A stretch of DNA of 12,725 nt from Alphaproteobacteria bacterium (lineage in GTDB: Bacteria; Pseudomonadota; Alphaproteobacteria; Micropepsales; Micropepsaceae): assembly GCA_025935155.1 (NCBI GenBank), contig JAICVV010000028.1:1-12725 (forward strand). Reading direction: 5' to 3'. Positions within the stretch are counted from its first letter, which is position 1, and every line of letters begins with the position of its first letter. The notes below the pieces were generated by a model. It was not told the DNA's origin. It ran no database searches and saw nothing but the letters and a program-made list of their open reading frames with translations. The position numbers and the translations under genes were made by a program. Below are positions 2,830 through 12,725 of the stretch, piece after piece.

Positions 2830-2865
2830 GGCGTTGTTGATTAACATTGAATCAGCCCTCTAAGC

Positions 2866-2900
2866 GTCATCGCCCGCCTTGTGCGGGCGACCCAATTTTC
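2866..2900 (+). repeat. REP-like palindrome A (left of the GIY-YIG gene)
   Basis: The core is an 8-bp perfect stem, TCGCCCGC (2870-2877) with GCGGGCGA (2883-2890), around the loop CTTGT, preceded by GTCA and followed by CCCAATTTTC. The 11-mer GTCATCGCCCG and the 17-mer CGGGCGACCCAATTTTC recur in inverted orientation at 3292-3244. The stretch 2881-2901 is also the exact reverse complement of 12301-12321, 21 bases. Confidence 0.85.
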
Positions 2901-2923
2901 TATTCTTTCTCATGGAGGGCAGC

Positions 2924-3291
2924 ATGCACGCTGTGAAGCGCTACTTCGTCTACATCATGATCAGCAGTCGTGGGGAACTCTCTACGTCGGGGTGACTGGC
3001 GATTTGCAATCGCGCGTCTACCAGCATCGCAATGGCCTGATTGCCGGCTTCACCAAGACCTACGGTATCAAGACACTCGTCTACTTCGAGGAGCATGAAA
3101 ACGCCGCATCCGCCATTCATCGCGAGAAGCGGCTGAAGAAGTGGCCGCGCGTGTGGAAAATCAATCTGGTCCGCACAGATAATCCTGATTGGAAGGATTT
3201 GGCCGCGGACTGGTACCCGCCTGACCTTACGCCTGAATTGATTGAAAATTGGGTCGCCCGGATCGCGCAAGAAGGCGCGACCGGGCGATGA
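2924..3291 (+). pseudogene. GIY-YIG nuclease domain protein, frameshifted
   Basis: From ATG 2924, with GGAGGG (2914-2919) upstream, the frame reads MHAVKRYFVYIMISSRGE and soon stops at TGA 2993. The family sequence continues in another frame from about 2975: GTLYVGVTGDLQSRVYQHR, then FTKTYGIKTLVYFEEHENA, AIHREKRLKKWPR and WKINLV, ending at TGA 3289. Joined, this is a typical small (about 120 residue) GIY-YIG domain protein of the UPF0213/YhbQ-like kind: 'VYI' and 'YVG' strands, the catalytic R of SRVYQH, and the E of the AAxAIxREKxLKKW helix. The break falls at the run GGGG (2972-2975); one more G would restore 'SSRGGTLYVGV'. It may be a real mutation or a base-calling slip. The gene's last codons lie in palindrome B. 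The function of such proteins is unsettled; the family fold cuts DNA. Confidence 0.8.
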
Positions 3292-3292
3292 C
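3244..3292 (-). repeat. REP-like palindrome B (right of the GIY-YIG gene, inverted)
   Basis: This is the inverted copy of palindrome A. Read on the minus strand it has the same outer arms, GTCATCGCCCG (3292-3282) and CGGGCGACCCAATTTTC (3260-3244), but a longer apical stem: GTCGCGC pairs with GCGCGATC around CTTCTT, with one bulged base. It contains the stop codon and the last codons of the GIY-YIG gene. Confidence 0.85.
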
Positions 3293-3313
3293 GGCTTCTG
3301 GGTTTCGTTCGAG

Positions 3314-9288: not shown

Positions 9289-9804
9289 TCAGATCAGCTT
9301 CTCGGCCGTGCCGTTCAGCGCCATCAGATAACCTTCGCAGCCGAGATCGGGATGCTTCTGCGCCAGCATCGCTTTCGCCTGCTGCATGACGCCCTTGTGC
9401 TGCGCGGCCTCTGCCTCGCCGGCCGCGGCGAAGTCCTTGCCGAATGCCACCCTGTAAGCGCCGCAATCGCGATGATCGAGGAAGATCACCTTCTTGATGT
9501 GATGCAGCTGCTTGGCGATGACAACATGGTCCCACACCGCGGCGTTGGACGACGGAAATTTCGGCGACACGGCGGCAAGCGACGCGCCTGCCAGCGCCAC
9601 CTGATCGTACTCCTTCGTCAGATGAATGCTGTTGAAGAACTTCACGCCATCGTCGACCAGACGATAGTCGATGCAGGTGAGCGCCAGCGCTTCGATGTCC
9701 GCGGCGCGCGCGCGAAGCGGAAGGAGCGCCAGGCCGCCCGCGCCGGCGAACAGCGCGCCAAGCTGGCGGCGATTGAAACTGAAATGACGGTGAACTTCAC
9801 ACAT
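9289..9804 (-). CDS. Exported beta-carbonic-anhydrase-like protein
   Basis: This is a 171-residue protein from ATG 9804; GGGAGGGG (9818-9811) sits 6 bases upstream, better than the in-frame ATG 9861. The N-terminus has 'SFNRRQLGALFAGAGGLALLPL' followed by RARAA: twin arginines, a hydrophobic stretch and an AxA site, so Tat export is likely though the motif is not perfect. The body shows the beta-carbonic-anhydrase zinc signature: 'TCIDYRLV' (C44, D46, R48) and 'FLDHRDCGAY' (H111, C114), so ligands Cys-His-Cys and the Asp/Arg dyad are present. Known family members interconvert CO2 and bicarbonate. The chain is shorter than the usual 200-230 residues and has 'VWDHVVIAKQLHHIKKV' before the His/Cys motif, as in the family. 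The Tat signal would fit cofactor insertion before export, but activity is not shown by sequence. Confidence 0.75.
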   Translation of the reverse strand: MCEVHRHFSFNRRQLGALFAGAGGLALLPLRARAADIEALALTCIDYRLVDDGVKFFNSIHLTKEYDQVALAGASLAAVSPKFPSSNAAVWDHVVIAKQLHHIKKVIFLDHRDCGAYRVAFGKDFAAAGEAEAAQHKGVMQQAKAMLAQKHPDLGCEGYLMALNGTAEKLI

Positions 9805-9861
9805 ATAGCCCCCCTCCCGTATAGCCGCACCTAACGGAATGGACGGCGCCGACAAAGTCAA

Positions 9862-9898
9862 TGGCGCGCCTTTGGGGAGTGGCGCGCCCTAGGGGAGT
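9862..9898. repeat. Tandem copies of the tRNA-Glu 3' end (att-like)
   Basis: The 19-mer TGGCGCGCCCTAGGGGAGT at 9880-9898 is identical to 10954-10972, which is the 3' end of tRNA-Glu including CCA (as complement TGG). A second copy at 9862-9880 differs at two positions. All are in the same orientation as the tRNA end. Duplicated tRNA 3' ends are the usual footprint of site-specific integration. Confidence 0.65.
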
Positions 9899-10862: not shown

Positions 10863-10953
10863 CCGTGGTTCAATTGAATCCGGATAAAGCTGAGGGGCCG
10901 CGCGAAACACGCAACGGTGCATGAATTTGGGCCAGTTGATTTCGATTGGGAGA

Positions 10954-11028
10954 TGGCGCGCCCTAGGGGAGTCGAACCCCTCTTGCAAGATTGAAAATCT
11001 TGAGTCCTAACCGATAGACGAAGGGCGC
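10954..11028 (-). tRNA. tRNA-Glu (anticodon TTC)
   Basis: On the minus strand the cloverleaf closes fully: acceptor GCGCCCT (11028-11022) with AGGGCGC (10964-10958), D arm GTCT/GGAC, anticodon stem CAAGA/TCTTG with loop TTTTCAA giving anticodon TTC, T arm AGGGG-TTCGACT-CCCCT, discriminator G at 10957 and an encoded CCA at 10956-10954. The 3' end is repeated at 9862-9898. Confidence 0.95.
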
Positions 11029-11038
11029 GGGTTTGGCG

Positions 11039-11067
11039 GCTATACTCGCGAGGGCCGCATCGCGCAA
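11039..11067 (-). promoter_or_regulatory. Probable promoter of tRNA-Glu
   Basis: On the minus strand TTGCGC (11067-11062) and TATAGC (11044-11039) are separated by 17 bases and end 10 bases before the tRNA 5' end, the expected place for a sigma-70-type promoter of a tRNA gene. The -35 box is a partial match (3 of 6 to TTGACA). Confidence 0.5.
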
Positions 11068-11103: not shown

Positions 11104-11129
11104 GTCGTCGCCCGGCTTGTCCGGGTGAC
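11104..11129 (+). repeat. REP-like palindrome C, interrupted by the IS110 element
   Basis: The sequence GTCGTCGCCCGG-CTTGT-CCGGGTGAC is a clear relative of palindrome A, with the same CTTGT loop and a stem of CGCCCGG with CCGGGTG. Its expected continuation CCCA is missing here and appears instead at 12289-12292, on the far side of the IS110 element. Confidence 0.8.
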
Positions 11130-11136
11130 TGTGTTG

Positions 11137-12090
11137 TCAGTCAAGAGCTGCAGCAGGGTTCCATGGATGACCGCTTTTGACGATGGCATTGGCGAGGACG
11201 ATGAGTTTCCTGGCGACGGCGATGATAGCCAGTTTGTTTGGCTTACCGTCATTGGTGAGGCGCTTGTAGAAGACTCTGAAGGAGGGATTGCATCGAATAG
11301 CTGCGACGGCGGCCATGTAGAGGGCGGTGCGCACACAGGCGCGACCGCCACCGATGTGATCGCCGCGCTGTGAGGTGCCACTGCGCTGCGGGTGTGGAGC
11401 AACGCCGGCAAGACTTGCGGCCTGATGCCGGTTCAGGGTTCCAAGCTCGGGCAGATCGGTGATGAGAACGCTGGCCACAACTGGGCCGACACCGGGAATG
11501 GAGCGCAGGAGATCCGCTTTTTCTGCCAATCCTTCATCCGCAGCAATGGCTTTGGAGAGGGCTGCTTCGACACGATCGCGTTCGGCGTTGAGAGCGGCAA
11601 TGACGGCCTTGAGGCTATCCAGCACAAAGCTGTCGCGCGTCATGCGCAGCCGGGTTTTCTCCTGCACGAGCAAATCCACCAATTGGCGCCGGCGCGCAGA
11701 AAGGCTGCGAATCGCCTCGGCCCGTTCGCTGGGCACCGATTGGCGTGGATCGTCCTGGGGCATGGCCAGAGCAAATCGTGCGATGAGTTCGGCGTCGATT
11801 GTATCGGTCTTGGCGCGCTTGCCGACAAATCGGCGGAAGCCGCGAACTCGGCCGGGCTGGACTCGTGTAACGGAAAGCCCGGCATCGCACAGGGCACGGG
11901 CGGCGGGGAACTCCAATCCGCCGGTAGCCTCAAGCACGACGCGCACGACATTGTGCTGCTTCAGATGGCCCGTCAGCGCTGCAATGCCTTCACAGCCATT
12001 GTTGAATGTGCCGGAGATACGCTGCGGCAGAACAAAAACGTCCAAGCGGGCTTTGGACACGTCGATCCCCGCAACGCAGAGTGTTGTCAT
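11137..12090 (-). CDS. IS110-family transposase (bridge-RNA-guided recombinase)
   Basis: This is a 317-residue protein. ATG 12090 (MTTLCVAGIDVSKARLDVFV) has GAGGA (12102-12098) 7 bases upstream; the frame stays open further upstream to 12321 but that part is the noncoding leader and flank. The N-terminal RuvC-like DEDD domain shows D10 in 'GIDVSK', E54 in 'VVLEATGG', and D96 and D99 in 'KRAKTDTIDAELIARF'. A coiled middle part (about 120-190) is followed by the C-terminal Tnp domain: 'LLRSIPGVGPVVASVLITDLP', 'AASLAGVAPHPQRSGTSQRGDHIGGGR', with the catalytic serine probably S237, then 'LYMAAVAAIRCNP' and 'KLAIIAVARKLI'. All key residues are present, so the enzyme looks intact. In this family it recombines the element's ends with target DNA chosen by the bridge RNA. 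Confidence 0.95.
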   Translation of the reverse strand: MTTLCVAGIDVSKARLDVFVLPQRISGTFNNGCEGIAALTGHLKQHNVVRVVLEATGGLEFPAARALCDAGLSVTRVQPGRVRGFRRFVGKRAKTDTIDAELIARFALAMPQDDPRQSVPSERAEAIRSLSARRRQLVDLLVQEKTRLRMTRDSFVLDSLKAVIAALNAERDRVEAALSKAIAADEGLAEKADLLRSIPGVGPVVASVLITDLPELGTLNRHQAASLAGVAPHPQRSGTSQRGDHIGGGRACVRTALYMAAVAAIRCNPSFRVFYKRLTNDGKPNKLAIIAVARKLIVLANAIVKSGHPWNPAAALD

Positions 12091-12268
12091 GAGAAGGTCC
12101 TCGCCTGTATGCGGGCTCGCGGCACATGATGCCGCGGCCCTCCTGACTGTCCGGACTGGACTCAAGGATGCGGCCGCGCGCCAACCCGGACACGTGCTCG
12201 ATGGTTCGAGAGAAGCACCCGCACAGCGACCCAGCGCGCTACGACCGCACCGCCAGCTTACAAGCCAG
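12091..12268 (-). ncRNA. Candidate IS110 bridge RNA
   Basis: The leader folds as two looped stems on the minus strand. In the 5' one, GCGGUC (12248-12243) pairs with GGCCGC (12175-12170) and GCGCGC (12239-12234) with GCGCGC (12181-12176). The internal loop holds TGGGTCGC (12233-12226) and TGTCCGGGT (12192-12184) and is closed by a hairpin including CTCG/CGAG. TGGGTC equals the target flank at 12292-12287, and TGTCCGGGT is complementary to the other flank, ACCCGGACA (11126-11118). In the 3' one, ACAGTC (12150-12145) equals the right end of the element plus core (11132-11127). After a 7-bp hairpin (12136-12130 with 12124-12118), CATACAGGCGA (12111-12101) is complementary to the left end (12288-12278). 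The order matches the IS621 bridge RNA. The 5' end is inferred from the junction promoter; the 3' end is uncertain. Confidence 0.75.
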
Positions 12269-12289
12269 CTTCCACGACATACAGGCGAC

Positions 12290-12404
12290 CCATTTGATTG
12301 AGAAAATTGGGTCGCCCGCACCCGCCTACGCTAAAGCTTCGGCGTGGCAAGGAATACATGAGGCGCGCCGTAGCCCTGGCGGAGCGGCTAAAGCGGGCGG
12401 TGAC
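12290..12404 (-). repeat. REP-like palindrome D and intergenic region right of the IS element
   Basis: There is no gene here. 12290-12301 completes palindrome C (CCATTTGATTGA). GAAAATTGGGTCGCCCG (12302-12318) is identical to palindrome B (3244-3260), and 12301-12321 is the exact reverse complement of 2881-2901. The returning arm is probably GCGGGCGGTGAC (12393-12404), a near match to the CGGGCGATGAC arm of B. The apical part is longer than in A or B and contains CGCCTACGCTAAAGCTTCGG. Confidence 0.6.
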
Positions 12405-12419
12405 GCTGGAGGGTAATCG

Positions 12420-12725
12420 CTACTTCGAGGGCGGACGGAGAAGTTCAATTTCCAGCGGATCGAGTTTCGGGCTCACGTGCTGGATGGAGCGCCAGGTGAA
12501 GCCGTCCTTGGGCGAAATCCAGTAGCTGTTGGTAAATGTCCAATCTGGCGTATCGCTATGGCACTGCTCATCCACATGGATCGTGGGAATGCGTGAGGTG
12601 AAATTCGGCACGCCTTCAGGGCCGATCACAACGCTACGGCAGGTAACAAGCACTCCGTAAAGGTGGAGATCGCCGAAATCTTCCGACCATTGCGTCTCCG
12701 CGCTGCCCTGCAGCGGCGGGCCGCC
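12420..12725 (-). CDS. 3' part of a gene resembling YjbF/GfcB lipoproteins
   Basis: The frame is open from the window edge (12725) to TAG 12422-12420, about 101 residues. It begins in mid-protein with 'LQGSAETQWSEDFGDLHLYG', so the true start lies outside; GTG 12653 inside the window is not a convincing start. The C-terminal part 'DWTFTNSYWISPKDGFTWRS', then 'IQHVSPKLDPLEIELLRPPSK', resembles the end of YjbF/GfcB (group 4 capsule lipoprotein) proteins, which have an 'F-N-YW' segment, a 'G--W+S-Q' segment and a final 'P--I-+L+P'. Two cysteines (VTCRS and EQCHS) are visible. The family call rests on a short stretch and is tentative; a role in exopolysaccharide export would follow from it. Confidence 0.5.
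   Translation of the reverse strand, partial: GGPPLQGSAETQWSEDFGDLHLYGVLVTCRSVVIGPEGVPNFTSRIPTIHVDEQCHSDTPDWTFTNSYWISPKDGFTWRSIQHVSPKLDPLEIELLRPPSK

Follow-up and report, generated by a model that had tools for sequence, protein, structure and literature searches.

Elements of the IS110 group are guided by an RNA whose mechanism is already known, and the bridge RNA described here is a further member of that family; the new point is its core. In IS621, the preference for a CT core is attributed to a main-chain contact with the T (PMC11208158), made by the amide of G63, while N84 contacts the base facing the first letter of the core, and the same article describes handshake bases that continue beyond guide and core. 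Core changes tried on IS621 in PMC11208160 include AT, GT and TT, which keep the T, and a T at the second core base is reported to be almost invariant among relatives of IS621. Natural re-targeting has been reported for the pair ISEc11 and ISXne4 (PMC11187229), and insertion of IS110 elements into REP repeats was described in 2006 (PMC1525189), before the RNA was known.

The DNA analyzed here (the window) is 12,725 nucleotides long and constitutes one entire contig, C245, of the MAG G000, whose assembly is fragmented. To judge by the database name of a single protein, P0003, of 86% identity, the host is probably a relative of Rhizomicrobium. Near its right end lies an insertion sequence whose leader very probably encodes an IS110-group bridge RNA, with loops pairing to a REP target and to the joined ends of the element, and with strand exchange at a CC core. 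In the mechanism that we propose, the leader would be expressed as a bridge RNA, as in IS621; its first loop would pair with both strands of the target REP hairpin, TGGGTCG-CC-CGGACA, and its second with the junction of the element's two ends, ACAGTCA-CC-TGTATG, whereupon the recombinase would exchange strands beside the CC core and insert an excised circle into REP repeats. The predicted pairings and the position of the core follow from the letters themselves; circle formation, strand cleavage and RNA expression we infer by analogy with IS621. As judged from its sequence, the locus is an IS110 bridge system with a variant core, and its features are listed in Table 1.

Table 1. Positions of the element, its flanks and the predicted RNA features in the window.
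Feature	Position	Strand	Basis or remark
IS110-group insertion sequence	11126..12285	(-)	1160 bp including a single core copy
Left core dinucleotide CC	12284..12285	(-)	Junction comparison
Right core dinucleotide CC	11124..11125	(-)	Junction comparison
Left target flank TGGGTCG, portion of REP repeat	12286..12292	(-)	Empty TGGGTCGCCCGG copies in host
Right target flank CGGACA, remainder of same REP hairpin	11118..11123	(-)	Rejoined hairpin
Partner half of REP doublet, left of element	12305..12316	(+)	Inverted repeat 12284-12295 / 12305-12316
Bridge recombinase (DEDD/RuvC + Transposase_20), 317 aa	11137..12090	(-)	Pfam, phmmer, catalytic residues
5' stem-loop of predicted bridge RNA	12252..12270	(-)	RNA folds
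Predicted target-binding loop (stem, left guide, hairpin, right guide)	12167..12251	(-)	Constrained folds, pair counts
Left target guide TGGGTCGC	12226..12233	(-)	8/8 to own flank
Right target guide TGTCCG + GG opposite CC core	12185..12192	(-)	7/7 to complement of core + five target bases
Predicted handshake base U, pairing donor A before core	12184..12184	(-)	Handshake comparison
Predicted donor-binding loop	12097..12156	(-)	Folds, pair counts
Left donor guide ACAGTCA	12144..12150	(-)	Identical to right end before core
Right donor guide CATACA + GG opposite CC core	12104..12111	(-)	Complement of left-end CC-TGTATG
Predicted handshake bases CGA, pairing target TCG before core	12101..12103	(-)	Sequence; first base tested across families

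Element boundaries and core position

The ends of the element were set by comparing its junctions with empty REP copies and with five copies of a related element in a second genome, G065. Empty copies in the host read TGGGTCG-CC-CGG at five places (none for the reversed control), and the junctions are TGGGTCG-CC-TGTATG on the left and ACAGTCA-CC-CGGACA on the right, so that the letters common to both junctions and the empty repeat are CC. When the flanks are rejoined at CC a perfect hairpin is restored in all six insertions, with a stem of 9 bp in the window (GTCGCCCGG-ACAAG-CCGGGCGAC) and of 8 bp in each of the five in G065. The initial annotation had proposed a GTC core; rejoining at its boundary yields stems of only 5 bp in the same six insertions, and both that core and its element ends, which lie 2-3 bases away from those in Table 1, were abandoned. 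The crossover thus placed appears, on these alignments, to lie at CC instead of the usual CT. The MAG contains near-identical loci and its assembly around repeats could therefore be imperfect; the five G065 copies, in a genome of three contigs, are independent of its quality. Between the core and the ATG lie 195 non-coding nucleotides and downstream of the gene about 11, the longer end being upstream, as in the IS110 group.

The alternative that survives best places the usual CT core one base later, with C-CC in the target and C-CT in the donor and with the core of the left junction derived from the donor. The junctions can be written this way (GC-CT-GTATG on the left, AC-CC-GGACA on the right), a mismatched CT/CC core is formally possible, and in one distant family, L045, the junctions share CCT, such that CC and CT are indistinguishable. 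However, this placement demands unequal cores, it shifts every guide by one base relative to ten relatives aligned on donor guide plus CT, and it leaves unexplained the GG that the loops carry opposite CC in all three elements of this type. We regard it as improbable, and take the core to be CC in what follows.

Several observations concern the surroundings of the insertion. Window positions 12284-12725 are 96.4% identical to positions 178-619 of contig C360, where the same REP is empty and the sequence beyond differs; a paralogue, another strain or a rearrangement at the REP would each account for this. Contig C11 fuses window segments 9776-9898 and 10948-11048 (100% and 94% identity) without the approximately 1 kb between them, which suggests strain variants within the MAG. 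A tRNA gene (10957-11028, minus strand; anticodon TTC by eye) lies about 75 bases from the REP entered by the element.

Guides and their flanks

The four guide strings named in the initial annotation are all present where it placed them, and its interpretation of the leader as a bridge RNA is supported, as are the order and polarity that it likened to IS621 (target loop first, left guide in sense, right guide in antisense). The lengths required revision. With the core at CC and the ends shifted, the left target guide becomes 8 nt (12233-12226), where TGGGTC had been given as 6, and the left donor guide, given as ACAGTC, is ACAGTCA (12150-12144), although both matches are real. The 9-base match at the right target exists, and is composed of six target bases, two core bases and one base pairing the donor A; the 11-base donor match likewise exists, and consists of six donor bases, two core bases and three that pair the target flank. 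These matches are long because each stretch extends beyond guide and core to include handshake bases. The donor guides correspond to both element ends, and the left one does not extend over the core, its next letters, GG, having no match to CC. Each guide, as redefined, is unique in the leader, and among 50,000 dinucleotide shuffles of the leader minus its first 20 nt none contained all four guides and eight contained two or more.

Relatives were sought at E 1e-60 or better in 95 other genomes of the same taxonomic family, three of which were positive: G065 with five copies (75% protein identity), G007 with one that has lost its right end (67%), and G052 with one (42%). The left guides of the window, G065 and G007 elements (TGGGTCGC, TGGGTGGC and TGGATGGC) are distinct, and each matches its own left flank at 8 of 8 positions. 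Among these close relatives, left guides vary together with each element's own target flank, which is the outcome favoring the guide reading in the comparison of related copies that had been suggested for it. A contrary case is a partial second copy in the same MAG, inside which contig C305 begins; it has the identical left guide and the flank TGGGTCA, matching at 7 of 8 (the exception being position 7).

The same relationship extends to more distant elements, tested with one copy per family. Across 12 IS110 families, 83 of 96 left-guide letters match on the diagonal, with an off-diagonal mean of 5.5/8, and the right guides match at 76 of 84; in neither test was any of 100,000 permutations as good, a result that overstates independence since the families tested are related. 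The weakest left guides are those of G295 and G231 (5/8 each, failures) and G572 (6), and the lowest right-guide scores are those of G065 and G439 (5/7). Further copies in G471 (L056, L061) and G439 (L060) differ from the copy tested by one flank letter. The left-guide test covers families whose left end and donor guide are recognized by motif, and so omits L009-L022, L042, L045, L047, L049-L051 and L055; G800 is also omitted from it and included in the right-guide and handshake tests. Handshake pairing, with guide strings chosen by eye and the right guide of G439 not identified, is seen at target position 7 in 12 of 13 cases, G800 being the exception, and at donor position 7 in 12 of 12, counting one for which the G007 base, its right end being lost, was taken from its guide.

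These data bear on a different explanation, namely that the transposase binds the matching stretches as terminal repeats in the DNA, and that they are not guides in an RNA. The 11-base pair is indeed a plain inverted repeat in the DNA, and the bridge RNA is here a prediction from sequence. Terminal repeats would not, however, be expected to alternate between sense and antisense within conserved stems, to change with the flank of each copy and include handshake bases, or, in the case of the target guides, to match flanking DNA outside the element. We consider such repeats a very improbable explanation, and RNA guides the far better one.

The hosts differ in how frequently the corresponding repeats occur. 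The REP word of G065, TGGGTGGCCCGC, is found 135 times in that genome, twice in G000 and once in G007 (reversed controls 0, 1 and 0). The word entered in the window, TGGGTCGCCCGG, occurs five times in G000, four in G065 and once in G007 (reversed controls 0, 1 and 1), and is thus only mildly enriched in its host. For G007, whose right flank is lost, the target predicted blind from the RNA is TGGATGGCCGGCTCA. This exact word is absent from G007; with one mismatch it occurs at five places, two of them TGGATGGCCGGCTCG, and with up to three mismatches at 277 places vs 75 for the reversed control.

We note that genes for GIY-YIG nucleases also occur beside such repeats. One in the window (2864-3294; PF01541) is flanked by two REP halves in inverted orientation, which belong to the repeat family targeted by the element, a relative in G007 (L122/L123; L123 1120-1510) also lies between inverted REPs, and another in G065 (L104 1140-1520) lies between two REPs of the same orientation, one TGGGTCGCCCG and one TGGGTGGCCCG. 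The arrangement recalls, by analogy, the REP-associated tyrosine transposases; a literature search combining GIY-YIG with repetitive extragenic palindromic returned nothing. In G127 another GIY-YIG gene (L045 1064-1321) is found approximately 180 bases beside an IS110 element.

The predicted leader RNA

The leader folds more stably than all of 200 shuffled versions (z -5.3). When folding is constrained to keep the guides open, the three leaders (window, G065 and G007) each form first a stem of target type, bearing an internal loop and a hairpin, and then one of donor type, in agreement with the two looped stems of the initial annotation; in the unconstrained minimum-energy fold of the leader the guides are partly paired. 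The unconstrained fold was rejected as a model of the loops because in it the start of the left end pairs with the right donor guide, reflecting the inverted repeat at the DNA level. In an alignment of the three leaders, 89.9% of cells are paired vs 27-52% for slid versions, an excess that is partly expected since the structure was drawn from the window. Stem covariation, a further check that had been proposed, gives a favorable result on a small sample: the stems are common to the three leaders, and 5 of 43 stem pairs are changed on both sides among these three sequences.

That the leader is a mere structured 5' UTR controlling the transposase, with guide matches that are inherited or due to chance, is also highly unlikely: the right donor guide (12111-12101, handshake bases included) does lie a short way upstream of the ATG at 12090 and translation could be affected by such strong folding, but the absence of all four guides from every shuffled leader argues against chance, inheritance leaves unexplained why three guides match three different flanks, and translational control could in any case coexist with a guide role.

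Searches with models gave mixed results. A covariance model of seven pairs (R1), built from ten donor loops of CT-core elements, recovers relatives outside its training set (L045 at E 4.7e-8, L014 at 1e-5 and L051 at 0.001); with filters on, its hits at E up to 1 include no donor loop from a CC element, and with filters off this CT-derived model places the window donor loop correctly, but without significance, as the third best hit in the window (E 0.53, 8.9 bits). A scan of the window with Rfam yielded the tRNA only, and no match in the leader. In IMG/VR, a donor-loop motif scan gave two matches, both without a transposase, and an alignment scan gave eight stretches, none of them a relative. 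A candidate promoter spanning the joined ends, TTGACT-17-TATGTC, matches at 8 of 12 positions and is weak, being equalled by 356 of 2,000 shuffles; 6 of 12 junctions have TTGAC at the corresponding position, and a promoter scan of the integrated element found one site only, inside the gene.

Core choice, the recombinase and described systems

CC is present at both ends in the window and G065 elements and at the left end in G007. Among 16 readable distant families the right end has CT after the donor guide in 14, namely the ten in the right-guide test together with L009, L010, L011 and L012. In the other two, L045 and L049, CC follows the donor guide there, and the left end of L049 has CT; each may be an additional CC core or a decayed copy. 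CT at the left end was part of the motifs typed for the CT families, so CT on the left reflects selection and only CT on the right is a reading; the latter excludes L017-L022 and L055, and the right end was not recognized in L013-L016, L042, L047, L050 and L051. In the SAR202 relatives L009 and L015 the apparent left core is TG, not CT, L009 having CT at the right end. The letters opposite the core match its identity, being GG in the CC elements and AG in 10 of 10 CT families; the right donor guide fits the core in 13 of 13 elements and the right target guide in all 12 identified. After the left donor guide the CC elements have GG, GA or CG, without pairing to the core.

The recombinase contains PF01548 (DEDD_Tnp_IS110) and PF02371 (Transposase_20), both above the curated cut-offs, and phmmer matches it over its length to ISCro4 (9t56, 2e-37) and IS621 (8wt6, 1.2e-35). 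Residues D10, E54, D96, D99 and S237, whose positions were derived by counting along from the IS621 numbering in PMC11208158, are the same in all 13 aligned homologues. The glycine corresponding to IS621 G63 is kept. At the position of N84 the three CC elements have Q, whereas the ten CT families aligned have N in nine and D in one. The comparison was widened to 134 aligned rows, comprising the query, the 13 aligned homologues and, from 4,867 database hits, the 120 listed as best, with duplicates included; rows of at least 59% identity have Q (87), R (13), T (3), P (1) or a gap (1); N is confined to rows of 55% identity or less. Both alignments had favored a change of N84 to Q as what allows the recombinase to use CC, but this claim was dropped on residues read by eye: L011 has Q despite a CT right end, and in L045 and L049 N occurs together with a CC right end. 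Since L011, with its CT core, also has Q, this residue alone cannot be the switch; Q is typical of most of this clade, and we do not claim it as a determinant of the core.

The three CC elements form one clade, and a switch would therefore count as a single event. That a natural clade of bridge recombinases changed its core from CT to CC, with A to G in both RNA loops keeping the pairing, is in our estimate an evenly balanced proposition, having stood slightly better before the L011 counter-example and the CC right ends of L045 and L049 were taken into account. No CC core was seen in passages of PMC11208160, PMC11208158, PMC11187229 and PMC1525189, and its novelty is to that extent provisional. 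With a clade whose core is CC and whose RNA letters match it, the basis of core choice would become testable.

Among described systems, ISCro4 (PDB 9t56) provides the best match to a solved structure and is likened here by protein alone. ISEc21, an IS110-type element with a seekRNA (PMC11187229), is similar by description, in that a non-coding region upstream of tnp gives rise to a target-matching RNA, and differs in being another element with another target. Also by description, ISPpu9, ISPpu10, ISPa11 and ISRm19 (PMC1525189) share insertion of an IS110 element into host REP repeats. The closest likeness is to IS621 of E. coli (PDB 8wt6; PMC11208160, PMC11208158), which as described there has its RNA in the left end with the target loop before the donor loop, a left guide in sense and a right guide in antisense, handshake bases, and a REP target, and which shares the DEDD and serine catalytic residues. 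The window element differs from IS621 in having Q at the position of N84, in a right donor guide that runs ungapped over CC-TGTATG where that of IS621 is described as interrupted, and in its core, predicted to be CC where IS621 has CT.
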